Source: Meghimatium bilineatum (taxonomy: Eukaryota > Mollusca > Gastropoda > Stylommatophora > Philomycidae). From it: 64,000 bases of DNA. Where the stretch lies: positions 45,328,094-45,392,093 of the forward strand of contig CM067306.1 of NCBI GenBank assembly GCA_034231615.1. Reading direction: 5' to 3'. The position numbers and the translations under genes are program-made. Below are positions 1-43,930 of the stretch, in pieces; positions within the stretch are counted from its first letter, which is position 1, and each line of letters opens with the position of its first letter. The notes beneath the pieces were generated by a model, which saw only the letters and a program-made list of their open reading frames with translations, ran no database searches and was not told the DNA's origin.

Positions 1-274
1 TTAATGGCACCTTAATACTGCAGATCACTGGCGTATTAAACACGAATTGGGTGTATTGCAGTTTAGTACGCCAAAAATCGTTGTATTCTGGGATATTACT
101 CACAAATTCATTGTACTGAAGCTTACTACACTAGAATTTAGTGTATTCTAGCCTATTACACATGATTTCCTTGTTGTGCAGCTTAATACTTCAGAACTCT
201 TGCGTATTACACACAAATTAGGTGTATTGCAGTTTAGTACGCTAAATCTCGTTGTATTCTGGCATATTACTCAC

Positions 275-1930
275 AGATTCATTGTACTGAAGCTTACTAC
301 ACTAGAATTGAGTGTATTATGGCCTATTACACATGATTTCGTTGTATTGCAGCTTAATACGTCAGAACACTGGCGTATCACATACGAATTGGGTGTATTG
401 CAGTTTACTACGCCACAACTGGTTGTATTCTGGCACATTACTCACAAATTCATTGTACTGAAGCTTACTACACTAGAATTGAGTGTATTCTGGTCCATTA
501 CACATGATTTCGTTGTATTGCAGCTAATACTTCAGAACACTGGCGTATTAAACACGATTTGGGAGTATTGCAGTTTAGTACGCCAAAACTCGTTGTATTC
601 TGGCATATTAATCACAAATTCATTGCATTGAAGCTTAATACACTAGAATTGAGTGCATACTGGCCTATTGCACATGATTTCGTTGTAGTGCAGCTTAATA
701 CGTCAGAACACTGGCGTATTAGACATGAATTGGGTGTATTGCAGTTATGTACGCCAAAACTCGTTGTATTCTGGGATATTACTCACAAATTCATTGTACT
801 GAAGCTTACTACACTAGAATTGAGTGTATTCTAGCCTATTACACATGATTTCCTTGTTGTGCAGCTTAATTCTTCAGAACTCTGGCGTATTACACACAAA
901 TTAGGTGTATTGCAGTTTAGTACGCCAAAACTCGTTGTATTCTGGGATATTACTCACAAATTGGGTGTACTGAAGCTTACTACACTAGGATTGAGTGTAT
1001 TCTGGCCTATTGTACATGATTTCGTTGTACTGCAGCTTAATACGTCAGGACACTGGCGTATTACACAAGAATTGAGTGTATTGCAGTTTAGTACGCCAAA
1101 ACTCGTTGTATTCTGGGATATTACTCACAAATTCATTGTACTGAAGATTAATGCACTAGAATTGAGTGTATTCTGGCATATAACACATGATTTCGTTGTA
1201 TGGCACCTTAATACTGCAGATCACTGGCGTATTAAACACGAATTGGGTGTATTGCAGTTTAGTACGCCAAAAATCGTTGTATTCTGGGATATTACTCACA
1301 CATTCATTGTACTGAAGCTTACTACACTAGAATTGAGTGTATTCTAGCCTATTACACATGATTTCCTTGTTGTGCAGCTTAATACTTCAGAACACATGCG
1401 TATTACACACAAATTAGGTGTATTGCAGTTTAGTACGCTAAATCTCGTTGTATTCTGGCATATTACTCACAGATTCATTGTACTGAAGCTTACTACACTA
1501 TAATTGAGTGTATTCTGGCCCATTACACATGATTTCGTTGTATTGCACCTTAATACTGCAGAACACTGGCGTATTAAACACGAATTGGGTGTATTGCAGT
1601 TTAGTACGCCAAAACTCGTTGTATTATGGGATATTACTCACAAATTCATTGTACTGAAGCTTACTACACTATAATTGAGTGTATTCTGGCCCATTACACA
1701 TGATTTCGTTGTATTGCTCCTTAATACTGCAGAACACTGGCGTATTAAACACGAATTGGGTGTATTGCAGTTCAGTACGCCAAAACTCGTTGTATTCTGG
1801 GATATTACTCACAAATTCATTGTACTGAAGCTTACTACACTAGAATTGAGTGTATTCTGGCCTATAACACATGATTTCGTTTAATGGCACCTTAATACTG
1901 CAGATCACTGGCGTATTAAACACGAATTGA
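275..1930 (+). repeat. Higher-order repeat copy, offset 2564 bp (15 units), copy 1
   Basis: This segment matches 2839-4494 with only a handful of base differences, including a shared 1-base deletion (near 524 and 3088). The offset of 2564 bp is 15 units minus that base. Shared private variants include GTATTATGGCC, CAGTTATGTACGCC and TTTAATGGCACC. The match starts between about 275 and 311 and stops near 1930, where copy 2 switches to a different unit series. Confidence 0.85.
521..530 (+). other. 1-base deletion tag (first of two copies)
   Basis: CAGCTAATAC replaces CAGCTTAATAC. The same deletion is found at 3085-3094, exactly one 2564-bp higher-order period away, so it predates that duplication. 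Confidence 0.85.
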
Positions 1931-2540
1931 GTGTATTGCAGTTTAGTACGACAAAACTCGTTGTATTCTGGGATATTACTCACAAATTCATTGTACTGAA
2001 GCTTACTACACTAGAATTGAGTGTATTCTAGCCTATTACACATGATTTCGTTGTAGTGCAGCTTAATACTTCAGAACTCTTGCGTATTACACACAAATTG
2101 GGTGTATTGCAGTTTAGTATTCTAAAACTCGTTGTATTCTGGCATATTACTCACGAATTCACTATACTGAAGCTTAATACACTAGAAGTGAGTGTATTTT
2201 GGCCCATTACACATGATTTCGTTGTATTGCACCTTAATACTGCAGAACACTGGCGTATTAAACACGAATTGGGTGTATTGCAGTTTAGTACGCCAAAACC
2301 CGTTGTATTCTGGCATATTACTCACAAATTCATTGTACTGAAGCTTACTACACTAGAAGTGAGTGTATTCTGGCCCATTACACATGATTACGTTGTATTG
2401 CACCTTAATACTGCAGAACACTGGCGTATTAAACACGAATTGGGTGTATTGCAGTTTAGTACGCCACAACTCGTTGTATTCTGGCATATTACTCACAATT
2501 TGGGTGTACTGAAGCTTACTACACTAGAATTGAGTGTATT
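1926..2540 (+). repeat. Segment also present at 5345-5959 (and again 3076 bp later)
   Basis: This carries the distinctive series with CAGTTTAGTATTCTAAAACTC, CACGAATTCA, GATTACGTTGTATTGCACC and CACAATTTGGGTG. The same series recurs at about 5345-5959 (offset 3419 bp, 20 units minus 1) and at about 8421-9035. It diverges at 2541, where the later copies read TTCTAGCC instead of TTCTGGCC. Its differing neighbours show it was moved as a block relative to the 15-unit repeat. Confidence 0.75.
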
Positions 2541-2838
2541 CTGGCCTATAACACATGATTTTGTTGTATGGCACCTTAATACTGCAGATCACTGGCGTAT
2601 TAAACACGAATTGGGTGTATTGCAGTTCAGTACGCCAAAACTCGTTGTATTCTGGGATATTACTCACAAATTCATTGTACTGAAGCTTACTACACTAGAA
2701 TTGAGTGTATTCTGGCCTATAACACATGATTTTGTTGTATGGCACCTTAATACTGCAGATCACTGGCGTATTAAACACGAATTGGGTGTATTGCAGTTTA
2801 GTACGCCAAAAATCGTTGTATTCTGGGATATTACTCAC

Positions 2839-4494
2839 ATATTCATTGTACTGAAGCTTACTACACTAGAATTGAGTGTATTATGGCCTATTACACATGA
2901 TTTCGTTGTATTGCAGCTTAATACGTCAGAACACTGGCGTATCACATACGAATTGGGTGTATTGCAGTTTACTACGCCACAACTGGTTGTATTCTGGCAC
3001 ATTACTCACAAATTCATTGTACTGAAGCTTACTACACTAGAATTGAGTGTATTCTGGTCCATTACACATGATTTCGTTGTATTGCAGCTAATACTTCAGA
3101 ACACTGGCGTATTAAACACGATTTGGGAGTATTGCAGTTTAGTACGCCAAAACTCGTTGTATTCTGGCATATTAATCACAAATTCATTGCATTGAAGCTT
3201 AATACACTAGAATTGAGTGTATACTGGCCTATTGCACATGATTTCGTTGTAGTGCAGCTTAATACGTCAGAACACTGGCGTATTAGACATGAATTGGGTG
3301 TATTGCAGTTATGTACGCCAAAACTCGTTGTATTCTGGGATATTACTCACAAATTCATTGTACTGAAGCTTACTACACTAGAATTGAGTGTATTCTAGCC
3401 TATTACACATGATTTCCTTGTTGTGCAGCTTAATTCTTCAGAACTCTGGCGTATTACACACAAATTAGGTGTATTGCAGTTTAGTACGCCAAAACTCGTT
3501 GTATTCTGGGATATTACTCACAAATTGGGTGTACTGAAGCTTACTACACTAGGATTGAGTGTATTCTGGCCTATTGTACATGATTTCGTTGTACTGCAGC
3601 TTAATACGTCAGGACACTGGCGTATTACACAAGAATTGAGTGTATTGCAGTTTAGTACGCCAAAACTCGTTGTATTCTGGGATATTACTCACAAATTCAT
3701 TGTACTGAAGATTAATGCACTAGAATTGAGTGTATTCTGGCATATAACACATGATTTCGTTGTATGGCACCTTAATACTGCAGATCACTGGCGTATTAAA
3801 CACGAATTGGGTGTATTGCAGTTTAGTACGCCAAAAATCATTGTATTCTGGGATATTACTCACACATTCATTGTACTGAAGCTTACTACACTAGAATTGA
3901 GTGTATTCTAGCCTATTACACATGATTTCCTTGTTGTGCAGCTTAATACTTCAGAACTCATGCGTATTACACACAAATTAGGTGTATTGCAGTTTAGTAC
4001 GCTAAATCTCTTTGTATTCTGGCATATTACTCACAGATTCATTGTACTGAAGCTTACTACACTATAATTGAGTGTATTCTGGCCCATTACACATGATTTC
4101 GTTGTATTGCACCTTAATACTGCAGAACACTGGCGTATTAAACACGAATTGGGTGTATTGCAGTTTAGTACGCCAAAACTCGTTGTATTATGGGATATTA
4201 CTCACAAATTCATTGTACTGAAGCTTACTACACTATAATTGAGTGTATTCTGGCCCATTACACATGATTTCGTTGTGTTGCACCTTAATACTGCAGAACA
4301 CTGGCGTATTAAACACGAATTGGGTGTATTGCAGTTCAGTACGCCAAAACTCGTTGTATTCTGGGATATTACTCACAAATTCATTGTACTGAAGCTTACT
4401 ACACTAGAATTGAGTGTATTCTGGCCTATAACACATGATTTCGTTTAATGGCACCTTAATACTGCAGATCACTGGCGTATTAAACACGAATTGG
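2839..4494 (+). repeat. Higher-order repeat copy, offset 2564 bp (15 units), copy 2
   Basis: This is the partner of 275-1930. Differences seen between copies include GAGTGCATAC/GAGTGTATAC, AAATCGTTG/AAATCATTG and TTGCTCC/TTGCACC. That low count over about 1.65 kb, compared with many differences between adjacent units, indicates a recent multi-unit duplication. The last part of this copy is also the start of the 3076-bp tandem duplication. Confidence 0.85.
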
Positions 4495-6860
4495 GTGTAT
4501 TGCAGTTTAGTACGCCAAAAATCGTTGTATTCTGGGATATTACTCACATATTCATTGTACTGAAGCTTACTACACTAGAATTGAGTGTATTCTGGCCTAT
4601 TACACATGATTTCGTTGTATTGCAGCTTAATACGTCAGAACACTGGCGTATCACATACGAATTGGGTGTATTGCAGTTTACTACGCCACAACTGGTTGTA
4701 TTCTGGCACATTACTCACAAATTCATTGTACTGAAGCTTACTACACTAGAATTTGGTGTATTCTGGTCCATTACACATGATTTCGTTGTATTGCAGCTTA
4801 ATACTTCAGAACTCTGGCGTATTAAACACGATTTGGGAGTATTGCAGTTTAGTACGCCAAAACTCGTTGTATTCTGGCATATTACTCACAAATTCATTGT
4901 ACTGAAGCTTACTACACTAGAATTGAGTGTATTCTGGCCTATAACACATGATTTCGTTGTATGGCACCTTAATACTGCAGATCACTGGCATATTAAACAC
5001 GAATTGGGTGTATTGCAGTTTAGTACGCCAAAAATCGTTGTATTCTGGGATATTACTCACAAATTCATTGTATTGAAGCTTACTACACTAGAATTGAGTG
5101 TATTCTAGCCCATTACACATGATTTCGTTGTATTGCACCTTAATACTGCAGAACACTGGCGTATTAAACACGAATTGGGTGTATTGCAGTTTAGTACGCC
5201 AAAACTCGTTGTATTCTGGCATATTACTCACAAATTGGGTGTACTGAAGCTTACTACACTAGGATTGAGTGTATTCTAGCCTATTGCACATTATTTCGTT
5301 GTACTGCAGCTTAATACGTCAGAACACTGGCGTATTACACAAGAATTGAGTGTATTGCAGTTTAGTACGACAAAACTCGTTGTATTCTGGGATATTACTC
5401 ACAAATTCATTGTACTGAAGCTTACTACACTAGATTTGAGTGTATTCTAGCCTATTACACATGATTTCGTTGTAGTGCAGCTTAATACTTCAGAACTCTT
5501 GCGTATTACACACAAATTGGGTGTATTGCAGTTTAGTATTCTAAAACTCGTTGTATTCTGGCATATTACTCACGAATTCATTGTACTGAAGCTTAATACA
5601 CTAGAAGTGAGTGTATTTTGGCCCATTACACATGATTTCGTTGTATTGCACCTTAATACTGCAGAACACTGGCGTATTAAACACGAATTGGGTGTATTGC
5701 AGTTTAGTACGCCAAAACCCGTTGTATTCTGGCATATTACTCACAAATTCATTGTACTGAAGCTTACTACACTAGAAGTGAGTGTATTCTGGCCCATTAC
5801 ACATGATTACGTTGTATTGCACCTTAATACTGCAGAACACTGGCGTATTAAACACGAATTGGGTGTATTGCAGTTTAGTACGCCACAACTCGTTGTATTC
5901 TGGCATATTACTCACAATTTGGGTGTACTGAAGCTTACTACACTAGAATTGAGTGTATTCTAGCCTATTACACATGATTTCGTTGTATTGCAGCTTAATA
6001 CTTCAGAACTCTTGCGTATTACACACAAATTGGGTGTATTGCAGTTTAGTTTTCTAAAACTCGTTGTATTCTGGCATATTACTCACAAATTCATTGTACT
6101 GAAGCTTACTACACTAGAAGTGAGTGTATTTTGGCCCATTACACATGATTTCGTTGTATTGCACCTTAATACGTCAGAACACTGGCGTATTACACACAAA
6201 TTAGGTGTATTGCAGTTTAACGCCAAAACCCGTTGTATTATGGCATATTACTCACAAATTGGGTGTACTGAAGATTACTACACTAGAATTGAGTGTATTC
6301 TGGCCTATTGCACATGATTCCGTTGTACTGCAGCTTAATACGTCAGAACACAGGCGTATTACACAAGAATTGGGTGTATTGCAGTTTAGTACGCCAAAAC
6401 TCGTTGTATTCTGGGATATTACTCACAAATTCATTGTACTGAAGCTTACTACACTAGAATTGAGTGTATTCTGGCCTATAACACATGATTTCGTTGTATG
6501 GCACCTTAATACTGCAGATCACTGGCGTATTAAACACGAATTGGGTGTATTGCAGTTTAGTACGCCAAAAATCGTTGTATTCTGGGATATTACTCACATA
6601 TTCATTGTACTGAAGCTTACTACACTAGAATTGAGTGTATTCTGGCCTATTACACATGATTTCGTTGTATTGCAGCTTAATACGTCAGAACACTGGCGTA
6701 TCACATACGAATTGGGTGTACTGCAGTTTAGTACGCCACAACTGGTTGTATTCTGGCACATTACTCACAAATTCATTGTACTGAAGGTTACTACACTAGA
6801 ATTGAGTGTATTCTGGTCCATTACACATGATTTCGTTGTAGTGCAGCTTAATACTTCAGA
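3785..6860 (+). repeat. 18-unit tandem duplication, copy 1 (3076 bp)
   Basis: This segment is followed immediately by a near-identical copy at 6861-9936. The period of 3076 bp is 18 units minus 2 bases, explained by a 2-base deletion near 6219 that recurs at 9295. The left edge is set by AGATCACTGG, which matches 6861 onward. Private differences seen are AAATCATTG at 3840, CACACATTC near 3862 and AGATTTGAG near 5432. Confidence 0.87.
6212..6224 (+). other. 2-base deletion tag (copy at 9288-9300)
   Basis: GCAGTTTAACGCC replaces GCAGTTTAGTACGCC, a loss of two bases. It is present in both copies of the 3076-bp duplication and explains why that period is 18 units minus 2. Confidence 0.85.
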
Positions 6861-9800
6861 TCACTGGCGTATTAAACACGAATTGGGTGTATTGCAGTTT
6901 AGTACGCCAAAAATCGTTGTATTCTGGGATATTACTCACATATTCATTGTACTGAAGCTTACTACACTAGAATTGAGTGTATTCTAGCCTATTACACATG
7001 ATTTCCTTGTTGTGCAGCTTAATACTTCAGAACTCATGCGTATTACACACAAATTAGGTGTATTGCAGTTTAGTACGCTAAATCTCTTTGTATTCTGGCA
7101 TATTACTCACAGATTCATTGTACTGAAGCTTACTACACTATAATTGAGTGTATTCTGGCCCATTACACATGATTTCGTTGTATTGCACCTTAATACTGCA
7201 GAACACTGGCGTATTAAACACGAATTGGGTGTATTGCAGTTTAGTACGCCAAAACTCGTTGTATTATGGGATATTACTCACAAATTCATTGTACTGAAGC
7301 TTACTACACTATAATTGAGTGTATTCTGGCCCATTACACATGATTTCGTTGTGTTGCACCTTAATACTGCAGAACACTGGCGTATTAAACACGAATTGGG
7401 TGTATTGCAGTTCAGTACGCCAAAACTCGTTGTATTCTGGGATATTACTCACAAATTCATTGTACTGAAGCTTACTACACTAGAATTGAGTGTATTCTGG
7501 CCTATAACACATGATTTCGTTTAATGGCACCTTAATACTGCAGATCACTGGCGTATTAAACACGAATTGGGTGTATTGCAGTTTAGTACGCCAAAAATCG
7601 TTGTATTCTGGGATATTACTCACATATTCATTGTACTGAAGCTTACTACACTAGAATTGAGTGTATTCTGGCCTATTACACATGATTTCGTTGTATTGCA
7701 GCTTAATACGTCAGAACACTGGCGTATCACATACGAATTGGGTGTATTGCAGTTTACTACGCCACAACTGGTTGTATTCTGGCACATTACTCACAAATTC
7801 ATTGTACTGAAGCTTACTACACTAGAATTTGGTGTATTCTGGTCCATTACACATGATTTCGTTGTATTGCAGCTTAATACTTCAGAACTCTGGCGTATTA
7901 AACACGATTTGGGAGTATTGCAGTTTAGTACGCCAAAACTCGTTGTATTCTGGCATATTACTCACAAATTCATTGTACTGAAGCTTACTACACTAGAATT
8001 GAGTGTATTCTGGCCTATAACACATGATTTCGTTGTATGGCACCTTAATACTGCAGATCACTGGCATATTAAACACGAATTGGGTGTATTGCAGTTTAGT
8101 ACGCCAAAAATCGTTGTATTCTGGGATATTACTCACAAATTCATTGTATTGAAGCTTACTACACTAGAATTGAGTGTATTCTAGCCCATTACACATGATT
8201 TCGTTGTATTGCACCTTAATACTGCAGAACACTGGCGTATTAAACACGAATTGGGTGTATTGCAGTTTAGTACGCCAAAACTCGTTGTATTCTGGCATAT
8301 TACTCACAAATTGGGTGTACTGAAGCTTACTACACTAGGATTGAGTGTATTCTAGCCTATTGCACATTATTTCGTTGTACTGCAGCTTAATACGTCAGAA
8401 CACTGGCGTATTACACAAGAATTGAGTGTATTGCAGTTTAGTACGACAAAACTCGTTGTATTCTGGGATATTACTCACAAATTCATTGTACTGAAGCTTA
8501 CTACACTAGAATTGAGTGTATTCTAGCCTATTACACATGATTTCGTTGTAGTGCAGCTTAATACTTCAGAACTCTTGCGTATTACACACAAATTGGGTGT
8601 ATTGCAGTTTAGTATTCTAAAACTCGTTGTATTCTGGCATATTACTCACGAATTCATTGTACTGAAGCTTAATACACTAGAAGTGAGTGTATTTTGGCCC
8701 ATTACACATGATTTCGTTGTATTGCACCTTAATACTGCAGAACACTGGCGTATTAAACACGAATTGGGTGTATTGCAGTTTAGTACGCCAAAACCCGTTG
8801 TATTCTGGCATATTACTCACAAATTCATTGTACTGAAGCTTACTACACTAGAAGTGAGTGTATTCTGGCCCATTACACATGATTACGTTGTATTGCACCT
8901 TAATACTGCAGAACACTGGCGTATTAAACACGAATTGGGTGTATTGCAGTTTAGTACGCCACAACTCGTTGTATTCTGGCATATTACTCACAATTTGGGT
9001 GTACTGAAGCTTACTACACTAGAATTGAGTGTATTCTAGCCTATTACACATGATTTCGTTGTATTGCAGCTTAATACTTCAGAACTCTTGCGTATTACAC
9101 ACAAATTGGGTGTATTGCAGTTTAGTTTTCTAAAACTCGTTGTATTCTGGCATATTACTCACAAATTCATTGTACTGAAGCTTACTACACTAGAAGTGAG
9201 TGTATTTTGGCCCATTACACATGATTTCGTTGTATTGCACCTTAATACGTCAGAACACTGGCGTATTACACACAAATTAGGTGTATTGCAGTTTAACGCC
9301 AAAACCCGTTGTATTATGGCATATTACTCACAAATTGGGTGTACTGAAGATTACTACACTAGAATTGAGTGTATTCTGGCCTATTGCACATGATTCCGTT
9401 GTACTGCAGCTTAATACGTCAGAACACAGGCGTATTACACAAGAATTGGGTGTATTGCAGTTTAGTACGCCAAAACTCGTTGTATTCTGGGATATTACTC
9501 ACAAATTCATTGTACTGAAGCTTACTACACTAGAATTGAGTGTATTCTGGCCTATAACACATGATTTCGTTGTATGGCACCTTAATACTGCAGATCACTG
9601 GCGTATTAAACACGAATTGGGTGTATTGCAGTTTAGTACGCCAAAAATCGTTGTATTCTGGGATATTACTCACATATTCATTGTACTGAAGCTTACTACA
9701 CTAGAATTGAGTGTATTCTGGCCTATTACACATGATTTCGTTGTATTGCAGCTTAATACGTCAGAACACTGGCGTATCACATACGAATTGGGTGTACTGC

Positions 9801-9936
9801 AGTTTAGTACGCCACAACTGGTTGTATTCTGGCACATTACTCACAAATTCATTGTACTGAAGGTTACTACACTAGAATTGAGTGTATTCTGGTCCATTAC
9901 ACATGATTTCGTTGTAGTGCAGCTTAATACTTCAGA
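6861..9936 (+). repeat. 18-unit tandem duplication, copy 2 (3076 bp)
   Basis: This is the direct tandem copy of 3785-6860. At the junction near 6860, TTCAGA joins TCACTGG, whereas the end of copy 2 near 9936 continues as CAGAACTCTTGCG. This is the pattern expected of an unequal exchange between misaligned units. Very few differences from copy 1 indicate a young event. Confidence 0.87.
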
Positions 9937-11334
9937 ACTCTTGCGTATTACACACAAATTGGGTGTATTGCAGTTTAGTACGCTAAATCTCGTTGTATTC
10001 TGGCATATTACTCACAAATTCATTGTACTGATGCTTACTACACTATAATTGAGTGTATTCTGGCCCATTACACATGATTTCGTTGTATTGCACCTTACTA
10101 CTGCAGAACACTGGCGTATTACACAAGAATTGAGTGTATTGCAGTTTAGTACGACAAAACTCGTTGTATTCTGGGATATTACTAACAAATTCATTGTACT
10201 GAAGCTTACTACACTAGAATTGAGTGTTTTCTGGCCTATTGCACATGATTTCGTTGTACTGCAGCTTAATACGTCAGAACACTGACGTATTACACACAAA
10301 TTGGGTGTATTGCAGTTTAGTACGCCAAAACCCGTTGTATTCTGGCATATTACTCACAAATTGGGTGTACTGAAGTTTACTACACTATAATTGAGTGTAT
10401 TCTGGCCTATTGCACATGATTCCGTTGTACTGCAGCTTAATACGTCAGAACACTGGCGTATTACACTAGAATTCGGTGTATTGCAGTTTAGTACACCAAA
10501 ACTCGTTGTATTCTGGGATATTACTCACAAATTCATTGTACTGAAGCTTACTACACTAGAATTGAGTGTATTCTGGCCTATAACACATGATTTCGTTGTA
10601 TGGCACCTTAATACTGCAGATCACTGGCGTATTAAACACGAATTGGGTGTATTGCAGTTTAGTACGCCAAAAATCGTTGTATTCTGGGATATTACTCACA
10701 TATTCATTGTACTGAAACTTACTACACTAGAATTGAGTGTATTCTGGCCTATTACACATGATTTCGTTGTATTGCAGCTTAATACGTCAGAACACTGGCG
10801 TATCACATACGAATTGGGTGTATTGCAGTTTTGTACGCCACAACTGGTTGTATTCTGGCACATTACTCACACATTCATTGTACTGAAGCTTACTACACTA
10901 AAATTGAGTGTATTCTGGTCCATAACACATGATTTCGTTGTATTGCAGCTTAATACTTCAGAACACTGGCGTATTAAACACGATTTGGGAGTATTGCAGT
11001 TTAGTACGCCAAAACTCGTTGTATTCTGGCATATTAATCACAAATTCATTGCATTGAAGCTTACTACACTAGGATTGAGTGTATGCTGGCCTATTGCACA
11101 TGATTTCGTTGTACTGCAGCTTAATATGTCAGAACACTGGAGCGTTACACAAGAATTGAGTGTATTGCAGTTTAGTATTCTAAAACTCGTTGTATTCTGG
11201 CATATTACTCACAAATTCATTGTACTGAAGCTTACTACACTAGAAGTGAGTGTATTCTGGCCCATTACACATGATTTCGTTGTATTGCACCTTAATACTG
11301 CAGAACACTGGCGTATTAAACACGAATTGGGTGT
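9937..11334 (+). repeat. Unit series resembling 20.0-21.7 kb and 22.3-23.3 kb
   Basis: Eight or so units lie between the 18-unit duplication and the next repeated block. The part from about 10391 shares its unit order (CCTATTGCACATGATTCCG, TTACACTAGAATT, TATGGCACC, CATATTCATTG, CTACACTAAAATTG) with 20803 and 22342. The offset of 10412 bp to 20803 equals 61 units minus 19, explained by the 16- and 3-base deletions at 11631 and 13396. It differs by extra substitutions such as AATTCGGTG and GTATGCTGG. Confidence 0.7.
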
Positions 11335-11620
11335 ATTGCAGATTAGTACGCCAAAACTCGTTGTATTCTGGCATATTACTCACAAATTGGGTGTACTGAA
11401 ACTTACTACACTATAATTGAGTGTATTCTGGCCCATTACACATGCTTTCGTTGTATTGCACCTTAATACTGCAGAACACTGGCGCATTAAACACGAATTG
11501 GGTGTGTTGCAGTTTAGTACGCCAAAACTCGTTGTATTCTGGCATATTACTCACAAATTGGGTGTACTGAAGCTTACTACATTAGAATTGAGTGTATTCT
11601 GGCCTATTGCACATGATTTC

Positions 11621-11640
11621 GTTGTACTGCACTCTTGCGT
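11621..11640 (+). other. 16-base deletion within a unit
   Basis: TTGTACTGCACTCTTGCG here stands against the partner at about 15881, which has 16 more bases (GCTTAATACTTCAGAA) between ACTGCA and CTCTTGCG. It is seen once only, so it is younger than the 25-unit-spaced duplication. Confidence 0.85.
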
Positions 11641-12000
11641 ATTACACACAAATTGGGTGTATTGCAGTTTAGTATTCTAAAAATCGCTGTATTCTGGCAT
11701 ATTACTCACAAATTCATTGTACTGAAGCTTACTACACTAGAAGTGAGTGTATTCTGGCCCATTACACATGATTTCGTTGTATTGCACCTTAATACTGCAG
11801 AACACTGGCGTATTAAACACGAATTGGGTGTATTGCAGTTTAGTACGTTAAAACTCGTTGTATTCTGGCATATTGCTCACAAATTGTGTGTACTGAAGAT
11901 TACTACACTAGAATTGAGTGTTTTCTGGCCTATTGCACATGATTTCGTTGTACTGCAGCTTAATACGTCAGAACACTGGCGTATTACACACAAATTGGGT

Positions 12001-12171
12001 GTATTGCAGTTTAGTACGCCAAAACCCGTTGTATTCTGGCATATTACTCACAAATTGGGTGTACTGAAGCTTACTACACTAGAATTGAGTGTATTCTGGC
12101 CTATTACACATGATTTCGTTGTATTGCAGCTTAATACTTCAGAACACTGGCGTATTAAACACGATTTGGGA
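12001..12171 (+). repeat. Representative 171-bp satellite unit
   Basis: This copy has no indel, and its next copy begins at 12172, so the unit is exactly 171 bp. A consensus-like unit has 64 G or C bases (about 37%), 33 C, 31 G and 5 CpG. It contains a HindIII site (AAGCTT) in the third internal block, present in nearly every unit of the array. PstI sites (CTGCAG) come and go between units as TTGCAG/CTGCAG and CTTCAG/CTGCAG variants. The choice of unit start (GTATTGCAG) is arbitrary and was made to match the internal block boundaries. Confidence 0.95.
12001..12171 (+). repeat. Six internal ~30-bp subrepeats (A-B-A-B-A-B) inside one unit
   Basis: The unit divides at each GTATT or GTACT into blocks at 12001-12030, 12031-12060, 12061-12090, 12091-12120, 12121-12151 and 12152-12171. 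Odd blocks (type A) begin like GTATTGCAGTTTAGTAC, GTACTGAAGCTTACTAC and GTATTGCAGCTTAATAC. Even blocks (type B) share GGCNTATTACNCA followed by an A/T-rich end. On consensus units, blocks 2 and 4 match at about 24 of 30 positions, blocks 1 and 5 at about 22 of 28, and the last block's 23-base tail matches block 2 at about 18 of 23. An A against a B block gives about 19 of 30. The last A-B pair is 51 bp instead of 60, so 9 bp appear to have been lost at that boundary. Confidence 0.85.
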
Positions 12172-13460
12172 GTATTGCAGTTTAGTACGCCAAAACTCGT
12201 TGTATTCTGGCATATTAATCACAAATTCATTGCATTGAAGCTTACTACACTAGAATTGAGTGTATACTGGCCTATTGCACATGATTTCGTTGTAGTGCAG
12301 CTTAATACGTCAGAACACTGGCGTATTACACAAGAATTGGGTTTATTGCAGTTTAGTACGCCAAAACTCGTTGTATTCTGGGATATTACTCACAAATTCA
12401 TTGTACTGAAGCTTACTACACTAGAATTGAGTGTATTCTGGCCTATAACACATGATTTCGTTGTATGGCACCTTAATACTGCAGATCACTGGCGTATTAA
12501 ACACGAATTGGGTGTATTGCAGTTTAGTACGCCAAAAATCGTTGTATTCTGGGATATTACTCACATATTCATTGTACTGAAACTTACTACACTAGAATTG
12601 AGTGTATTCTGGCCTATTACACATGATTTCGTTGTATTGCAGCTTAATACGTCAGAACACTGGCGTATCACATACGAATTGGGTGTATTGCAGTTTTGTA
12701 CGCCACAACTGGTTGTATTCTGGCACATTACTCACAAATTCATTGTACTGAAGCTTACTACACTAAAATTGAGTGTATTCTGGTCCATAACACATGATTT
12801 CGTTGTATTGCAGCTTAATACTTCAGAACACTGGCGTATTAAACACGATTTGTGAGTATTGCAGTTTAGTACGCCAAAACTCGTTGTATTCTGGCATATT
12901 AATCACAAATTCATTGCATTGAAGCTTACTACACTAGGATTGAGTGTATACTGGCCTATTGCACATGATTTCGTTGTACTGCAGCTTAATATGTCAGAAC
13001 ACTGGAGCATTACACAAGAATTGAGTGTATTGCAGTTTAGTATTCTAAAACTCGTTGTATTCTGGCATATTACTCACAAATTCATTGTACTGAAATTTAC
13101 TACACTAGAAGTGAGTGTATTCTGGCCCATTACACATGATTTCGTTGTATTGCACCTTAATACTGCAGAACACTGGCGTATTAAACACGAATTGGGTGTA
13201 TTGCAGTTTAGTACGACAAAACTCGTTGTATTCTGGCATATTACTCACAAATTGTGTGTACTGAAGATTACTACACTAGAATTGAGTGTTTTCTGGCCTA
13301 TTGCACATGATTTGGTTGTACTGCAGCTTAATACGTCAGAACACTGGCGTATTACACACAAATTGGGTGTATTGCAGATTAGTACGCCAAAACTCGTATT
13401 CTGGCATATTACTCACAAATTTGGTGTACTGAAGCTTACTACACTATAATTGAGTGTATT
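12070..13460 (+). repeat. 13-unit higher-order repeat, copy 1
   Basis: This matches 14290-15680 at offset 2220 bp (13 units minus a 3-base deletion near 13396 that is present only here). Shared variants include GGGTTTATTGCA, GCAGTTTTGTACGCCACAAC and CAGCTTAATATGTCAGAAC. The left edge is where copy 2 shows AAATTTGGTG rather than AAATTGGGTG. It overlaps the end of the previous 25-unit-spaced block, so the regions are nested. Confidence 0.75.
13391..13400 (+). other. 3-base deletion within a unit
   Basis: AACTCGTATT replaces AACTCGTTGTATT. It is absent from the 13-unit partner near 15611, so it arose after that duplication. Confidence 0.85.
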
Positions 13461-14289
13461 CTGGCCTATAACACATGATTTCGTTGTATGGCACCTTAAT
13501 ACTGCAGATCACTGGCGTATTAAACACGAATTGGGTGTATTGCAGTTTAGTACGCCAAAAATCGTTGTATTCTGGGATATTACTCACATATTCATTGTAC
13601 TGAAACTTACTACACTAGAATTGAGTGTATTCTGGCCTATTACACATGATTTCGTTGTATTGCAGCTTAATACGTCAGAACACTGGCGTATCACATACGA
13701 ATTGGGTGTATTGCAGTTTTGTACGCCACAACTGGTTGTATTCTGGCACATTACTCACACATTCATTGTACTGAAGCTTACTACACTAAAATTGAGTGTA
13801 TTCTGGTCCATAACACATGATTTCGTTGTATTGTAGCTTAATACTTCAGAACACTGGCGTATTAAACACGATTTGGGAGTATTGCAGTTTAGTACGCCAA
13901 AACTCGTTGTATTCTGGCATATTAATCACAAATTCATTGCATTGAAGCTTACTACACTAGGATTGAGTGTATGCTGGCCTATTGCACATGATTTCGTTGT
14001 ACTGCAGCTTAATATGTCAGAACACTGGAGCATTACACAAGAATTGAGTGTATTGCAGTTTAGTATTCTAAAACTCGTTGTATTCTGGCATATTACTCAC
14101 AAATTCATTGTACTGAAGCTTACTACACTAGAAGTGAGTGTATTCTGGCCCATTACACATGATTTCGTTGTATTGCACCTTAATACTGCAGAACACTGGC
14201 GTATTAAACACGAATTGGGTGTATTGCAGTTTAGTACGACAAAACTCGTTGTATTCTGGCATATTACTCACAAATTTGGTGTACTGAAG

Positions 14290-15680
14290 CTTACTACACT
14301 AGAATTGAGTGTATTCTGGCCTATTACACATGATTTCGTTGTATTGCAGCTTAATACTTCAGAACACTGGCGTATTAAACACGATTTGGGAGTATTGCAG
14401 TTTAGTACGCCAAAACTCGTTGTATTCTGGCATATTAATCACAAATTCATTGCATTGAAGCTTACTACACTAGAATTGAGTGTATACTGGCCTATTGCAC
14501 ATGATTTCGTTGTAGTGCAGCTTAATACGTCAGAACACTGGCGTATTACACAAGAATTGGGTTTATTGCACTTTAGTACGCCAAAACTCGTTGTATTCTG
14601 GGATATTACTCACAAATTCATTGTACTGAAGCTTACTACACTAGAATTGAGTGTATTCTGGCCTATAACACATGATTTCGTTGTATGGCACCTTAATACT
14701 GCAGATCACTGGCGTATTAAACACGAATTGGGTGTATTGCAGTTTAGTACGCCAAAAATCGTTGTATTCTGGGATATTACTCACATATTCATTGTACTGA
14801 AACTTACTACACTAGAATTGAGTGTATTCTGGCCTATTACACATGATTTCGTTGTATTGCAGCTTAATACGTCAGAACACTGGCGTATCACATACGAATT
14901 GGGTGTATTGCAGTTTTGTACGCCACAACTGGTTGTATTCTGGCACATTACTCACAAATTCATTGTACTGAAGCTTACTACACTAAAATTGAGTGTATTC
15001 TGGTCCATAACACATGATTTCGTTGTATTGCAGCTTAATACTTCAGAACACTGGCGTATTAAACACGATTTGGGAGTATTGCAGTTTAGTACGCCAAAAC
15101 TCGTTGTATTCTGGCATATTAATCACAAATTCATTGCATTGAAGCTTACTACACTAGGATTGAGTGTATACTGGCCTATTGCACATGATTTCGTTGTACT
15201 GCAGCTTAATATGTCAGAACACTGGAGCATTACACAAGAATTGAGTGTATTGCAGTTTAGTATTCTAAAACTCGTTGTATTCTGGCATATTACTCACAAA
15301 TTCATTGTACTGAAGCTTACTACACTAGAAGTGAGTGTATTCTGGCCCATTACACATGATTTCGTTGTATTGCACCTTAATACTGCAGAACACTGGCGTA
15401 TTAAACACGAATTGGGTGTATTGCAGTTTAGTACGACAAAACTCGTTGTATTCTGGCATATTACTCACAAATTGTGTGTACTGAAGATTACTACACTAGA
15501 ATTGAGTGTTTTCTGGCCTATTGCACATGATTTGGTTGTACTGCAGCTTAATACGTCAGAACACTGGCGTATTACACACAAATTGGGTGTATTGCAGATT
15601 AGTACGCCAAAACTCGTTGTATTCTGGCATATTACTCACAAATTGGGTGTACTGAAGCTTACTACACTATAATTGAGTGT
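14290..15680 (+). repeat. 13-unit higher-order repeat, copy 2
   Basis: This is the partner of 12070-13460, without the 3-base deletion. One private change is TTATTGCACTTTAG near 14567. It ends where CCCATTACACATGCTTTCG begins here while copy 1 continues CCTATAACACATGATTTCG. Confidence 0.75.
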
Positions 15681-16712
15681 ATTCTGGCCCATTACACATG
15701 CTTTCGTTGTATTGCACCTTAATACTGCAGAACACTGGCGCATTAAACACGAATTGGGTGTGTTGCAGTTTAGTACGCCAAAACTCGTTATATTCTGGCA
15801 TATTACTCACAAATTGGGTGTACTGAAGCTTACTACATTAGAATTGAGTGTATTCTGGCCTATTGCACATGATTTCGTTGTACTGCAGCTTAATACTTCA
15901 GAACTCTTGCGTATTACACACAAATTCGGTGTATTGCAGTTTAGTATTCTAAAAATCGCTGTATTCTGGCATATTACTCACAAATTCATTGTACTGAAGC
16001 TTACTACACTAGAAGTGAGTGTATTCTGGCCCATTACACATGATTTCGTTGTATTGCACCTTAATACTGCAGAACACTGGCGTATTAAACACGAATTGGG
16101 TGTATTGCAGTTTAGTACGTTAAAACTCGTTGTATTCTGGCATATTGCTCACAAATTGTGTGTACTGAAGATTACTACACTAGAATTGAGTGTTTTCTGG
16201 CATATTGCACATGATTTCGTTGTACTGCAGCTTAATACGTCAGAACACTGGCGTATTACACACAAATTGGGTGTATTGCAGTTTAGTACGCCAAAACCCG
16301 TTGTATTCTGGCATATTACTCACAAATTTGGTGTACTGAAGCTTACTACACTAGAATTGAGTGTATTCTGGCCTATTACACATGATTTCGTTGTATTGCA
16401 GCTTAATACTTCAGAACACTGGCGTATTAAACACGATTTGGGAGTATTGCAGTTTAGTACGCCAAAACTCGTTGTATTCTGGCATATTAATCACAAATTC
16501 ATTGCATTGAAGCTTACTACACTAGAATTGAGTGTATACTGGCCTATTGCACATGATTTCGTTGTAGTGCAGCTTAATACGTCAGAACACTGGCGTATTA
16601 CACAAGAATTGGGTTTATTGCAGTTTAGTACGCCAAAACTCGTTGTATTCTGGGATATTACTCACAAATTCATTGTACTGAAGCTTACTACACTAGAATT
16701 GAGTGTATTCTA
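15591..16712 (+). repeat. 25-unit-spaced block copy 2
   Basis: This is the partner of 11335-12440 and keeps the 16 bases missing there. It ends at the first copy of the landmark unit (TTCTAGCC followed by TTCCTTGTTGTGCAG) that marks the block boundaries further right. Confidence 0.72.
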
Positions 16713-19300
16713 GCCTATTACACATGATTTCCTTGTTGTGCAGCTTAATACTTCAGAACTCTGGCGTATTACACACAAATTAGGTGTATTGCAGTTTAGT
16801 ACGCTAAATCTCGTTGTATTCTGGCATATTACTCACAAATTCATTGTACTGATGATTACTACACTATAATTGAGTGTATTCTGGCCCATTACACATGCTT
16901 TCGTTGTATTGCACCTTAATACTGCAGAACACTGGCGTATTAAACACTAATTGGGTGTATTGCAGTTTAGTACGCCAAAACTCGTTGTATTCTGCCATAT
17001 TACTCTCAAATTGGGTGTACTGAAGCTTACTAAACTAGAATTGAGTGTATTCTGGCCTATTGCACATGATTTCGTTGTACTGCAGCTTAATACGTCAGAA
17101 CACTGGAGCATTACACAAGAATTGAGTGTATTGCAGTTTAGTACCACAAAACTCGTTGTATTCTGTGATATTACTCACAAATTCATTGTACTGAAGCTTA
17201 CTACACTAGAATTGAGTGTATTCTAGCCTATTACACATGATTTCGTTGTATTGCACCTTAATACTGCAGAACACTGGCGTATTAAACACGAATTGGGTGT
17301 ATTGCAGTTTAGTACGCCAAAACCCGTTGTATTCTGGCATATTACTCACAAATTCATTGTACTGAAGCTTACTACACTAGAAGTGGGTGTATTCTGGCCC
17401 ATTACACATGATTTCGTTGTATTGCACCTTAATACTGCAGAACACTGGCGTATTAAACACGAATTGGGTGTATTGCAGTTTAGTACGCCAAAACTCGTTG
17501 TATTCTGGCATATTACTCACAATTTTGGTGTACTGAAGCTTACTACACTAGAATTGAGTGTATTCTAGCCTATTACACATGATTTCGTTGTATTGCAGCT
17601 TAATACTTCAGAACTCTTGCGTATTACACACAAATTGGGTGTATTGCAGTTTAGTTTTCTAAAACTCGTTGTATTCTGGCATATTACTCACAAATTCATT
17701 GTACTGAAGCTTACTACACTAGAAGTGAGTGTATTTTGGCCCATTACACATGATTTCGTTGTATTGCACCTTAATACTGCAGAACACTGGCGTATTAAAC
17801 ACGAATTGGGTGTATTGCAGTTTAGTACGCCAAAACTCGTTGTATTCTGGCATATTACTCACAAATTCATTGTACTGAAGCTTACTACACTAGAAGTGAG
17901 TGTATTCTGGCCCATTACACATGATTTCGTTGTATTGCACCTTAATACTGCAGAACACTGGCGTATTAAACACGAATTGGGTGTATTGCAGTTTAGTACG
18001 CCAAAACTCGTTGTATTCTGGCATATTACTCACAAATTGGGTGTACTGAAGCTTACTACACTAGAATTGAGTGTATTCTGGCCTATTGCACATTATTTCG
18101 TTGTACTGCAGCTTAATACGTCAGAACACTGGCGTATTACACAAGAATTGAGTGTATTGCAGTTTAGTACGACAAAACTCGTTGTATTCTGGGATATTAC
18201 TCACAAATTCATTGTACTGAAGCTTACTACACTAGAATTGAGTGTATTCTAGCCTATTACACATGATTTCGTTGTAGTGCAGCTTAATACTTCAGAACTC
18301 TTGCGTATTACACACAAATTGGGTGTATTGCAGTTTAGTATTCTAAAACTCGTTGTATTCTGGCATATTACTCACAAATTCATTGTACTGAAGCTTACTA
18401 CACTAGAAGTGAGTGTATTTTGGCCCATCACACATGATTTCGTTGTATTGCACCTTAATACTGCAGAACACTGGCGTATTAAACACGAATTGGGTGTATT
18501 GCAGTTTAGTACGCCAAAACCCGTTGTATTCTGGCATATTACTCACAAATTCATTGTACTGAAGCTTACTACACTAGAAGTGAGTGTATTCTGGCCCATT
18601 ACACATGATTTCGTTGTATTGCACCTTAATACTGCAGAACACTGGCGTATTAAACACGAATTGGGTATATTGCAGTTTAGTACGCCAAAACTCGTTGTAT
18701 TCTGGCATATTACTCACAATTTGGGTGTACTGAAGCTTACTACACTAGAATTGAGTGTATTCTAGCCTATTACACATGATTTCGTTGTATTGCAGCTTAA
18801 TACTTCAGAACTCTTGCGTATTACACACAAATTGGGTGTATTGCAGTTTAGTTTTCTAAAACTCGTTGTATTCTGGCATATTACTCACAAATTCATTGTA
18901 CTGAAGCTTACTACACTAGAAGTGAGTGTATTTTGGCCCATTACACATGATTTCGTTGTATTGCACCTTAATACTGCAGAACACTGGCGTATTAAACACG
19001 AATTGGGTGTATTGCAGTTTAGTACGCCAAAACTCGTTGTATTCTGGCATATTACTCACAAATTGGGTGTACTGAAGCTTACTACACTAGGATTGAGTGT
19101 ATTCTGGCCTATTGCACATGATTTCGTTGTACTGCAGCTTAATACGTCAGGACACTGGCGTATTACACAAGAATTGAGTGTATTGCAGTTTAGTACGACA
19201 AAACTCTTTGTATTCTGGGATATTACTCACAAATTCATTGTACTGAAGCTTACTATACTAGAATTGAGTGTATTCTAGCCTATTACACATGATTTCGTTG
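16713..19300 (+). repeat. Short-period (2-4 unit) higher-order region
   Basis: Units carrying the TTCTAGCC variant end at 16713, 17226, 17568, 18252, 18765 and 19278, spaced 3, 2, 4, 3 and 3 units. Between them alternate AGTATTCTAAAAC and AGTTTTCTAAAAC units and CCCATTACACATGATTTCG/TTGCACCTTAATACTGCAG units. The same series is seen around 5.4-6.2 kb and 8.5-9.2 kb. This is the most compact higher-order pattern in the window. Confidence 0.7.
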
Positions 19301-20281
19301 TAGTGCAGCTTAATACTTCAGAACTCTTGCGTATTACACACAAATTGGGTGTATTGCAGTTTAGTATTCTAAAACTCGTTGTATTCTGGCATATTACTCA
19401 CAAATTCATTGTACTGAAGCTTATTACACTAGAAGTGAGTGTATTCTGGCCCATTACACATGATTTCGTTGTATTGCACCTTAATACTGCAGAACACTGG
19501 CGTATTAAACACGAATTGGGAGTATTGCACTTCAGTACGCCAAAACTCGTTGTATTCTGGCATATTACTCACAAATTGTGTGTACTGAAGCTTACTACAC
19601 TAGAATTGAGTGTTTTCTGGCCTATTGCACATGATTTCGTTGTACTGCAGCTTAATACGTCAGAACACTGGCGTATTACACAAGAATTGGGTGTATTGCA
19701 GTTTAGTACGCCAAAACTCGTTGTATTCTGGGATATTACTCACAAATTGGGTGTACTGAAGCTTACTACACTAGAATTGAGTGTATTCTGGCCTATAACA
19801 CATGATTTCGTTGTATGGCACCTTAATACTGCAGATCACTGGCGTATTAAACACGAATTGGGTGTATTGCAGTTTAGTACGCCAAAAATCGTTGTATTCT
19901 GGGATATTACTCACATATTCATTGTACTGAAGCTTACTACACTAGAATTGAGTGTATTCTGGCCTATTACACATGATTTCGTTGTATTGCAGCTTAATAC
20001 GTCAGAACACTGGCGTATCACATACGAATTGGGTTTACTGCAGTTTAGTACGCAACAACTGGTTGTATTCTGGCACATTACTCACAAATTCATTGTACTG
20101 AATGTTACTACACTAGAATTGAGTGTATTCTGGTCCATTACACATGATTTCGTTGTAGTGCAGCTTAATACTTCAGAACTCTTGCGTATTACACACAAAT
20201 TGGGTGTATTGCAGTTTAGTACGCTAAATCTCGTTGTATTCTGGCATATTACTCACAAATTCATTGTACTGATGCTTACTA
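19301..20281 (+). repeat. Unit series linking the 3-unit region to the 9-unit duplication
   Basis: Six units continue the AGTATTCTAAAAC series, then pass through TATGGCACC, CATATTCATTG and CATACGAATTGGGTTTACTG units. The last part (CTGAATGTTACTAC, then GCTAAATCTCG and CTGATGCTTACTAC) parallels about 9.85-10.05 kb. Offsets to that region agree after the known deletions are counted. Confidence 0.6.
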
Positions 20282-21820
20282 CACTATAATTGAGTGTATT
20301 CTGGCCCATTACACATGATTTCGTTGTATTGCACCTTAATACTGCAGAACACTTGCGTATTAAACACGAATTGGGTGTATTGCAGTTTAGTACGCCGAAA
20401 CTCGTTGTATTCTGGCATATTACTCACAAATTGTGTGTACTGAAGCTTACTACACTAGAATTGAGTGTATTCTGGCCTATTGCACATGATTTCGTTGTAC
20501 TGCAGCTTAATACGTCAGAACACTGGCGTATTACACAAGAATTGAGTGTATTGCAGTTTAGTACGACAAAACTCGTTGTATTCGGGGATATTACTTACAA
20601 ATTCATTGTACTGAAGCTTACTACACTAGAATTGAGTGTTTTCTGGAATATTGCACATGATTTCGTTGTACTGCAGCTTAATACGTCAGAACACTGGCGT
20701 ATTACACACAAATTGGGTGTATTGCAGTTTAGTACGCCAAAACCCGTTGTATTCTGGCATATTACTCACAAACTGGGTGTACTGAAGTTTACTACACTAT
20801 AATTGAGTGTATTCTGGCCTATTGCACATGATTCCGTTGTACTGCAGCTTAATACGTCAGAACACTGGCGTATTACACTAGAATTGGGTGTATTGCAGTT
20901 TAGTACGCCAAAACTCGTTGTATTCTGGGATATTACTCACAAATTCATTGTACTGAAGCTTACTACACTAGAATTGAGTGTATTCTGGCCTATAACACAT
21001 GATTTCGTTGTATGGCACCTTAATACTGCAGATCACTGGCGTATTAAACACGAATTGGGTGTATTGCAGTTTAGTACGCCAAAAATCGTTGTATTCTGGG
21101 ATATTACTCACATATTCATTGTACTGAAGCTTACTACACTAGAATTGAGTGTATTCTGGCCTATTACACATGATTTCGTTGTATTGCAGCTTAATACGTC
21201 AGAACACTGGCGTATCACATACGAATTGGGTGTATTGCAGTTTAGTACGCCACAACTGGTTGTATTCTGGCACATTACTCACAAATTCATTGTACTGAAG
21301 CTTACTACACTAAAATTGAGTGTATTCTGGTCCATAACACATGATTTCGTTGTATTGCAGCTTAATACTTCAGAACACTGGCGTATTAAACATGATTTGG
21401 GAGTATTGCAGTTTAGTACGCCAAAACTCGTTGTATTCTGGCATATTAATCACAAATTCATTGCATTGAAGCTTACTACACTAGGATTGAGTGTATACTG
21501 GCCTATTGCACATGATTTCGTTGTACTGCAGCTTAATACGTCAGAACACTGGAGCATTACACAAGAATTGAGTGTATTGCAGTTTAGTATTCTAAAACTC
21601 GTTGTATTCTGGCATATTACTCACAAATTCATTGTACTGAAGCTTACTACACTAGAAGTGAGTGTATTCTGGCCCATTACACATGATTTCGTTGTATTGC
21701 ACCTTAATACTGCAGAACACTGGCGTATTAAACACGAATTGGGTGTATTGCAGTTTAGTACGACAAAACTCGTTGTATTCTGGCATATTACTCACAAATT
21801 GGGTGTACTGAAGATTACTA
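20282..21820 (+). repeat. 9-unit tandem duplication, copy 1 (1539 bp)
   Basis: This matches 21821-23359 at exactly 9 x 171 bp with very few differences (for example TTCGGGGATATTACTTAC near 20583 and TGGAATATTGCAC near 20645 are private here). The order of unit variants is the same in both copies, from CTATAATTG through CACTAGAATTGGG, TATGGCACC, CATATTC, CACAACTGG and GGAGCATTACAC. Confidence 0.85.
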
Positions 21821-23359
21821 CACTATAATTGAGTGTATTCTGGCCCATTACACATGATTTCGTTGTATTGCACCTTAATACTGCAGAACACTGGCGTATT
21901 AAACACGAATTGGGTGTATTGCAGTTTAGTACGCCGAAACTCGTTGTATTCTGGCATATTACTCACAAATTGTGTGTACTGAAGCTTACTACACTAGAAT
22001 TGATTGTATTCTGGCCTATTGCACATGATTTCGTTGTACTGCAGCTTAATACGTCAGAACACTGGCGTATTACACAAGAATTGAGTGTATTGCAGTTTAG
22101 TACGACAAAACTCGTTGTATTCTGGGATATTACTCACAAATTCATTGTACTGAAGCTTACTACACTAGAATTGAGTGTTTTCTGGCCTATTGAACATGAT
22201 TTCGTTGTACTGCAGCTTAATACGTCAGAACACTGGCGTATTACACACAAATTGGGTGTATTGCAGTTTAGTACGCCAAAACCCGTTGTATTCTGGCATA
22301 TTACTCACAAACTGGGTGTACTGAAGTTTACTACACTATAATTGAGTGTATTCTGGCCTATTGCACATGATTCCGTTGTACTGCAGCTTAATACGTCAGA
22401 ACACTGGCGTATTACACTAGAATTGGGTGTATTGCAGTTTAGTACGCCAAAACTCGTTGTATTCTGGGTTATTACTCACAAATTCATTGTACTGAAGCTT
22501 ACTACACTAGAATTGAGTGTATTCTGGCCTATAACACATGATTTCGTTGTATGGCACCTTAATACTGCAGATCACTGGCGTATTAAACACGAATTGGGTG
22601 TATTGCAGTTTAGTACGCCAAAAATCGTTGTATTCTGGGATATTACTCACATATTCATTGTACTGAAGCTTACTACACTAGAATTGAGTGTATTCTGGCC
22701 TATTACACATGATTTCGTTGTATTGCAGCTTAATACGTCAGAACACTGGCGTATCACATACGAATTGGGTGTATTGCAGTTTAGTACGCCACAACTGGTT
22801 GTATTCTGGCACATTACTCACAAATTCATTGTACTGAAGCTTACTACACTAAAATTGAGTGTATTCTGGTCCATAACACATGATTTCGTTGTATTGCAGC
22901 TTAATACTTCAGAACACTGGCGTATTAAACATGATTTGGGAGTATTGCAGTTTAGTACGCCAAAACTCGTTGTATTCTGGCATATTAATCACAAATTCAT
23001 TGCATTGAAGCTTACTACACTAGGATTGAGTGTATACTGGCCTATTGCACATGATTTCGTTGTACTGCAGCTTAATACGTCAGAACACTGGAGCATTACA
23101 CAAGAATTGAGTGTATTGCAGTTTAGTATTCTAAAATTCGTTGTATTCTGGCATATTACTCACAAATTCATTGTACTGAAGCTTACTACACTAGAAGTGA
23201 GTGTATTCTGGCCCATTACACATGATTTCGTTGTATTGCACCTTAATACTGAAGAACACTGGCGTATTAAACACGAATTGGGTGTATTGCAGTTTAGTAC
23301 GACAAAACTCGTTGTATTCTGGCATATTACTCACAAATTGTGTGTACTGAAGATTACTA
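21821..23359 (+). repeat. 9-unit tandem duplication, copy 2 (1539 bp)
   Basis: This is the tandem partner of 20282-21820. The end of copy 2 differs from copy 1 at AAATTGTGTG versus AAATTGGGTG (near 23337 and 21798). The longer segment 21821 to about 24420 is repeated at about 40800-43399, so the 9-unit product was later copied or moved as part of a 15-unit piece. Confidence 0.85.
23136..23152 (+). other. CENP-B-box-like 17-mer (best match in window)
   Basis: ATTCGTTGTATTCTGGC fits the essential positions of the CENP-B box (NTTCGNNNNANNCGGGN) at 8 of 9, with T in place of the first G of CGGG. A second 8-of-9 copy is at 57672-57688. Most units carry ACTCGTTGTATTCTGGN at this place (7 of 9). 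CENP-B is known from mammals, and nothing shows that this host has a protein that binds here, so this may be chance. Confidence 0.25.
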
Positions 23360-43399: not shown

Positions 43400-43930
43400 G
43401 ATTTCGTTGTAGTGCAGCTTAATACTTCAGAACTCTTGCGTATTACACACAAATTGGGTGTATTGCAGTTTAGTATTCTAAAACTCGTTGTATTCTGGCA
43501 TATTACTCACAAATTCATTGTACTGAAGCTTACTACACTAGAAGTGAGTGTATTCTGGCCCATTACACATGATTTCGTTGTATTGCACCATAATACTGCA
43601 GAACACTGGCGTATTAAACACGAAGTGGGTGTATTGCAGTTTAGTACGTTAAAACTCGTTGTATTCTGGCATATTACTCACAAAATGTGTGTACTGAAGA
43701 TTACTACACTAGAATTGAGTGTTTTCTGGCCTATTGCACATGATTTCGTTGTACTGCAGCTTAATACGTCAGAACACTGGCGTATTACACACAAATTGGG
43801 TGTATTGCAGTTTAGTACGCCAAAACTCGTTGTATTCTGGCATATTACTCACAAATTGGGTGTACTGAAGCTTACTACACTATAATTGAGTGTATTCTGG
43901 CCCATTACACATGCTTTCGTTGTATTGCAC

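Follow-up and report, generated by a model that had tools for sequence, protein, structure and literature searches.

The window analyzed here, that is, the whole 64,000-bp stretch of Meghimatium bilineatum DNA (C9:45328094-45392093, in a 1.61-Gb genome of 32 contigs), is a single tandem array of a 171-bp satellite, whose unit is made up of six blocks of ~30 bp in which two types, A and B, alternate, with one pair of blocks 9 bp short. The assembly is described as comprising 25 chromosomes and 7 scaffolds that are not anchored (PMC10770140). The array and the blocks of the copy at 12001..12171 are listed below in window coordinates.

1..64000, forward strand: satellite array segment, lying within the chromosome 9 array (~44,569,829 to ~46,300,380)
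12030..12059, forward strand: block 1, type A, 30 bp
12060..12089, forward strand: block 2, type B, 30 bp
12090..12119, forward strand: block 3, type A, 30 bp
12120..12146, forward strand: block 4, type B, 27 bp in the alignment (its end carries 3 bp of the 9-bp deletion)
12147..12170, forward strand: block 5, type A, 24 bp in the alignment (6 bp missing at its start)
12000..12029, forward strand: block 6, type B, 30 bp

TRF reported 374 copies at a period of 171, together with a weak period-60 array over almost the same span of the window. Our own tiling yielded 373 copy starts, with 358 of the 372 spacings being exactly 171 bp; among the irregular spacings, two measured 186 bp and one 155 bp (copy starts 58875, 60771, and 11533), the rest being near 171. 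Farther along the same array, at C9:45692094-45694093 (L035), the stretch that separates blocks 2 and 5 is diverged and shortened in some units. With a GC content of ~0.37, the unit is AT-rich. Copies within the window share a mean identity of 0.91 (20,000 sampled pairs among the 358 exact-length copies), and no clear higher-order repeat was found there, copy identity being 0.90 to 0.92 at all 13 spacings tried. Matched against itself, the 64-kb window scored 0.878 at lag 171, 0.528 at lag 60, 0.479 at lag 30, 0.419 at lag 90, and 0.396 at lag 51, with 0.267 expected from composition. Rfam returned no match for positions 11001-14000 of the window, and none of the publications listed in our searches of open-access literature is about this satellite.

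Read in block register, starting at TGTATT, the consensus of the 358 exact-length copies is A30-B30-A30-B27-A24-B30. An earlier sequence-only reading had proposed the alternation of A and B blocks in this unit; it began the unit 1 base inside block 6, and what it called the 5/6 boundary is the 4/5 boundary here. The short pair, of 51 bp, is made of blocks 4 and 5, with our parser assigning the full loss to block 5 (30+21). The proposed alternation was borne out: the split 135|246 ranks first among the 10 possible three-and-three splits of the consensus, is the best split in 358/358 exact-length copies and in 1761/2000 column bootstraps, and is recovered, as that reading had anticipated for a block tree, by neighbor joining (NJ) with 825/1000 bootstraps. 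An NJ tree of 42 blocks from seven arrays likewise recovers the A|B split, with 57/60 bootstraps. The other three-and-three groupings of blocks were rejected, since they scored lower than 135|246 both in the window consensus and on loci from other chromosomes.

Blocks of like type are, overall, closer to each other than blocks of unlike type, but the identities quoted in support of this by the sequence-only reading (22/28 and 24/30) lie at the upper end of what we observed. In the consensus, like-type identities are 24/30, 18/24, and 19/24 for A and 19/27, 19/30, and 21/27 for B, whereas unlike-type identities range from 11/24 up to 16/24, and the like pair 2-6 (19/30) falls below the unlike pair 2-5 (16/24). 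The copy at 12001..12171 gave 23/30, 19/24, 19/24, 19/27, 18/30, and 21/27 for its like pairs and 8/24 to 19/30 for its unlike pairs. The two types are themselves related, with 19/30 positions identical between the A and B consensus sequences and all nine A-B block pairs (9/9) standing above letter shuffles (p values of <0.0002 to 0.026). The circular self-match of the consensus was 0.550 at lag 60 and 0.509 at lag 30, compared with a shuffle mean of 0.263 (standard deviation, 0.033), and both values exceed the shuffle maximum of 0.433, the top value over lags 2 to 85 in 2000 dinucleotide shuffles. Neither of the outcomes that the earlier reading had named as refuting it, a block tree lacking the A/B grouping or a 30-bp self-similarity no higher than in shuffles, was thus observed.

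The alternation extends well beyond the window. We parsed 22 loci plus the window, on ten chromosomes, with two profiles built from the six window consensus blocks only and with staying in a type and switching type equally weighted. Of 5143 steps, 5119 alternated, leaving 24 exceptions (3142/3147 alternating steps on chromosome 9 and 1977/1996 on the nine other chromosomes), with a few steps counted twice since loci L039 and L040 share 482 bp. When four loci on other chromosomes were parsed over their first 3000 bases, profiles based on the split 135|246 scored 7063 and alternated in 428/429 steps, whereas the nine alternative splits scored 5917 to 6321 with 60 to 78% alternation. Labels are not needed for this result: when nine loci not on chromosome 9 were parsed with a single merged profile and their 1148 blocks were then clustered by 2-means (4 gappy blocks being dropped), 1131/1137 steps alternated. 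Since the parser and the unlabelled clustering both alternate there, the A and B types are real and common to different chromosomes.

The length of the unit, by contrast, differs between arrays. Units of ~171 bp were found on chromosomes 3, 7, 8, and 9 and in parts of 2, 15, and 24, a 499-bp unit also on chromosomes 2, 15, and 18, and one of ~496 bp on chromosomes 4 and 24; the chromosome 5 array is a mixture of 171-, 219-, and 390-bp units, and one chromosome 18 locus is irregular in unit structure. Spacings of 1366 bp at C7:22.125 Mb and of ~1194 bp at C19:29.32-29.41 Mb suggest higher-order repeats of 8 and 7 units, respectively. The view that 171 bp is the final length of the satellite therefore does not hold outside arrays such as that of the window, 171 being elsewhere one of several unit sizes (499, ~496, 219, 390, and 1366 bp). 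Across these sizes, local tandem repeats at the level of blocks (lags 1 to 24 tested) occurred at lags 4 (1 case), 6 (73), 8 (1), 12 (14), 18 (10), and 24 (2) and at no others; chromosome 24 carries a small local tandem of four blocks (~120 bp). Since local repeats were seen at even block numbers only, the 60-bp A-B pair appears to be the unit of exchange.

The 499-bp unit of chromosome 2 comprises 18 blocks, that is, nine pairs, and similarity within this array is 0.79 at block lag 6, compared with 0.72 at lag 2 and 0.71 at lag 4. A fit that penalizes breaks of order labels its 18 blocks 5-6-1-2-3-4 three times, with nearest-block labels differing for some of them. Based on this imprint at block lag 6 and on the threefold 5-6-1-2-3-4 labelling, the three-pair stage is probably older than the split between the 171-bp and 499-bp families.

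We propose, with a probability of about 0.8, that the satellite arose through successive rounds of unequal exchange or slippage on ever larger scales, with the A-B pair as the exchange unit, and that it occupies a probable centromeric or pericentromeric place. Growth would have started from ~10 bp, of which a weak trace is left, and led to the 30-bp block; the block would then have given a 60-bp pair of diverged A and B blocks, the pair a unit of three pairs with one 9 bp short (171 bp), and the three-pair unit, on some chromosomes, the 499-bp unit of nine pairs. Arrays would gain or lose whole A-B pairs, and alternation would survive where unit length differs because arrays change in this manner. 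Copies would be homogenized in array interiors and decay at the edges. The block structure, the alternation, the local repeats at even steps, the widespread short pair, and the single region of listed copies on each chromosome where they were seen are direct observations; the direction and order of these steps, the exchange mechanism, and the place at the centromere or in flanking heterochromatin are what we infer. Given that several of the putative growth stages lie side by side on different chromosomes, the order in which a satellite grows becomes testable within one genome.

The 9-bp step is the part of this history for which another order has to be weighed. The sequence-only reading had held that 30 bp became 60 bp (A-B), then 180 bp, from which 9 bp was lost; the path from 30 to 60 bp to three pairs is supported by the alternation on nine other chromosomes, by the repeats at even block numbers, and moderately by pair similarity in relic copies, but the last step, 180 bp minus 9, is not shown, given that all 12 chromosomes read (chromosomes 2, 3, 4, 5, 7, 8, 9, 12, 15, 18, 23, and 24) have short pairs in their parsed loci and that no 180-bp array was found. 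A 60+60+51 unit already carrying the deletion is as good a fit as 180 bp followed by the loss of 9, and the 9-bp deletion may predate the tripling. We thus consider a variant of nested growth in which the deletion came first, the 51-bp pair arising in a 60-bp array and exchange fixing 60+60+51 without a 180-bp stage, and we place this variant somewhat short of even odds. It accounts for the presence of the short form in 370 of the 372 blocks of the window that match block 5 best at ≥80% identity, at either edge of the chromosome 9 array, and in degenerate copies on chromosomes 12 and 23. In the 499-bp unit, two of the three 4/5 junctions are short by eye, and the third has a different shortening. 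In addition, a second type of 51-bp pair (27+24), in which B lacks 3 bp at its end and A lacks 6 internal bp (L040, L043, L058, and L060), has the same length as the short pair of the window and a different deletion, which argues that short pairs form and become widespread independently.

A census of junctions that covered the window along with the 22 loci and four further pieces, with 4-to-5 called by nearest block, yielded 832 such junctions, of which 794 were short and 38 full-length. Thirty-four of the latter lie in 499-bp arrays, where they start with a block-2-like sequence and are 2-to-3 by order, and three, on chromosome 24, are a secondary 6-bp duplication within an already short junction. 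The remaining one, on chromosome 12 (C12:26722079-26722136; L066), lies in degenerate copies near the array edge; the similarity of its A block is 0.96 to ancestral block 5 and 0.93 to block 3, and the following B is nearer to 4 than to 6. It is the sole candidate for an undeleted 4/5 relic, ambiguous between 4-5 and 2-3, and it could thus speak against the deletion having come first. Also against that order, no pure 60-bp or 60/51 array was found. Undeleted 180-bp arrays and pure 60-bp arrays were sought with two hypothetical queries, one for the undeleted junction (40 of 597 candidates scored) and one for three undeleted pairs (40 of 2492 candidates scored), as well as in the parsed loci, and neither kind turned up. 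Runs of at least six full blocks numbered 7/886. On chromosome 8, nine full blocks in a row were considered as an undeleted array and rejected, as they are explained by ordinary units having lost a 4-5 pair between them.

If the pairs descend from one 60-bp ancestor, those of older copies should resemble each other more closely. The window gives a within-type similarity of 0.718 for its three pairs, the chromosome 23 relic 0.789, the chromosome 12 relic 0.830, and a six-family consensus 0.812. A control without an older stage (star-like mutation of the window unit, same consensus) gave 0.710, with a maximum of 0.737 in 500 trials. The relics were the top matches to a query made of the A-B average, so that the way in which they were chosen explains part of their higher pair similarity; when they were left out, the family consensus gave 0.781 for the three 499-bp hexamers, 0.758 with the window added, and 0.724 with chromosome 18 and a chromosome 2 array also included. 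Other arrays ranged from 0.680 to 0.756, with chromosomes 18 (0.695) and 2 (0.680) below the window. The edges of the chromosome 9 array, located by bisection alone, show the ancestor-like state at 12/38 informative sites, versus 7 to 12% in five other loci, with window-like states being commoner (19/38) and the ancestor partly built from the selected relics. Altogether, the age test supports a nested birth only moderately. At the base of the proposed series, a weak ~10-bp period underlies the 30-bp block: the mean self-match over lags 10, 20, 40, 50, 70, and 80 is 0.335, versus 0.253 in 3000 joint column permutations (P = 0.003), a weak effect.

The place of the satellite on the chromosomes was approached with a 28-base A-block pattern, which had 132,301 genome matches with at most 3 mismatches, the reversed control having none. 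From the density of one match per 167 to 255 bp in the window and 11 loci, we estimate a content of ~22 to 34 Mb, or 1.4 to 2.1% of the genome; the repeat table of the genome paper gives 0.48% for satellites (PMC10770140). Among the matches listed, the satellite forms one interval per chromosome on 19 of the 25 chromosomes (1, 2, 3, 4, 5, 7, 8, 9, 12, 13, 14, 15, 16, 18, 19, 20, 22, 23, and 24). The widest listed interval is 3.4 Mb, on chromosome 8, and chromosomes 12 and 20 are each represented by one place; chromosomes 6, 10, 11, 17, 21, and 25 have none among the matches listed and may still contain the satellite. The array on chromosome 9, sampled at points over 1.73 Mb (~44,569,829 to ~46,300,380), is the only one with a measured extent. 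Strand changes occur within single regions at C3:49.72-49.90 Mb, C8:24.35-27.79 Mb, C22:54.71-55.73 Mb, and C23:39.50-42.75 Mb, and they may be real or an effect of the assembly. Repeat order inside the arrays is uncertain because the contig N50 is given as 1.36 Mb (PMC10770140).

Other repeats and insertions were encountered along the way. The TTAGGG telomere motif is abundant in the genome, and a short internal TTAGGG stretch lies at C1:110571854, distant from the chromosome end. A nuclear insertion of mitochondrial DNA at C2:121988305-121991928 (L017) contains a COX1 that is open over 208 residues in the invertebrate mitochondrial code, preceded, by eye, by ND4-like and ND2-like stretches and adjoined by a short tandem repeat. 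This nuclear copy presumably resembles stylommatophoran COX1.

Since the listed copies lie in one region per chromosome (19 of 25), the arrays are, as judged from their distribution, probably centromeric or pericentromeric. That they belong to pericentromeric or other heterochromatin and are not the kinetochore-bearing satellite is a serious contender, to which we grant slightly less than an even chance. One region per chromosome fits a pericentromere and a centromere alike, and the mouse major satellite, the closest structural analogue, is described as lying in pericentric regions (PMC8191757).

Selection could also maintain the alternation, if A and B made different protein or nucleosome contacts and arrays with a broken register were lost. 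Across ten chromosomes with differing unit lengths, the alternation has hardly any breaks, and two different deletions each yield a 51-bp pair, as such a constraint might lead one to expect, but exchange between like blocks alone already predicts alternation. The CENP-B box (NTTCGNNNNANNCGGGN), moreover, is incomplete in these repeats: its 288 matches with at most 2 mismatches, above 100/100 shuffles (mean, 38), reflect one two-mismatch site recurring in most units, and among the 200 of these matches that were listed, none was exact and two had one mismatch. We therefore regard selection as unlikely. Still a little more doubtful, in our view, is the idea that the A-B pair serves as a functional phase unit with two faces of ~three helical turns each, binding different factors; if that were so, the surviving rearrangements would be those that kept whole pairs, and the two different 9-bp deletions would be constrained shortenings instead of accidents. 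Finally, chance or composition as the cause of the 30-bp self-similarity, which the AT-richness of the unit might invite, is ruled out by the shuffles, every value of which lies below those of lags 30 and 60, and by the recurrence of both types on other chromosomes, and it retains practically no weight.

The slug satellite, for which growth from a short block by exchange of whole pairs is our preferred reading, can be compared with several known satellites. Primate alpha satellite also has a 171-bp unit (PMC4053949), a dimeric alternation, and chromosome-specific higher-order repeats (PMC8122249), and it thus shares with the slug satellite both length and dimeric habit. However, alpha satellite alternates whole monomers, whereas the slug satellite alternates at 30 bp inside the 171 bp and showed no complete CENP-B box; because of the phylum and of this internal structure, we do not class the slug satellite as alpha satellite, and the equal length is taken as a coincidence. 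In Sorghum, variants A and B form an AB-dimer higher-order repeat, as judged by an NJ tree (PMC4053949), and those dimers consist of full monomers, whereas the slug A-B dimer lies below the monomer. Among gastropod satellite DNAs, an origin from a Nin-SINE was proposed for PcH-Sat of the limpet Patella caerulea (PMC11121367); the origin seen in the slug is from a short block.

The closest parallel is the mouse major satellite, the 234-bp unit of which is described as 58+60+58+58, each part composed of a 28-bp and a 30-bp subunit, with subunits made of 7- to 11-bp pieces and with higher-order repeats (PMC3218096). When the plans, and not the sequences, are compared, the slug satellite has the same nested organization with almost equal block sizes: ~60-bp subunits (60+60+51; self-match of 0.550 at lag 60), two related ~30-bp halves per subunit (A and B, 19/30 identical), a weak ~10-bp periodicity (P = 0.003), and higher-order repeats above the unit (499, ~496, and 1366 bp), the mouse unit having four pairs and the slug unit three. 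Since the two animals belong to different phyla, we read this likeness as convergent growth and not as descent. The nested subrepeat plan was already known from the mouse, and the slug satellite would add a molluscan case, suggesting that growth from ~30 bp to ~60 bp and on to nucleosome size may be a general path for satellite DNA.
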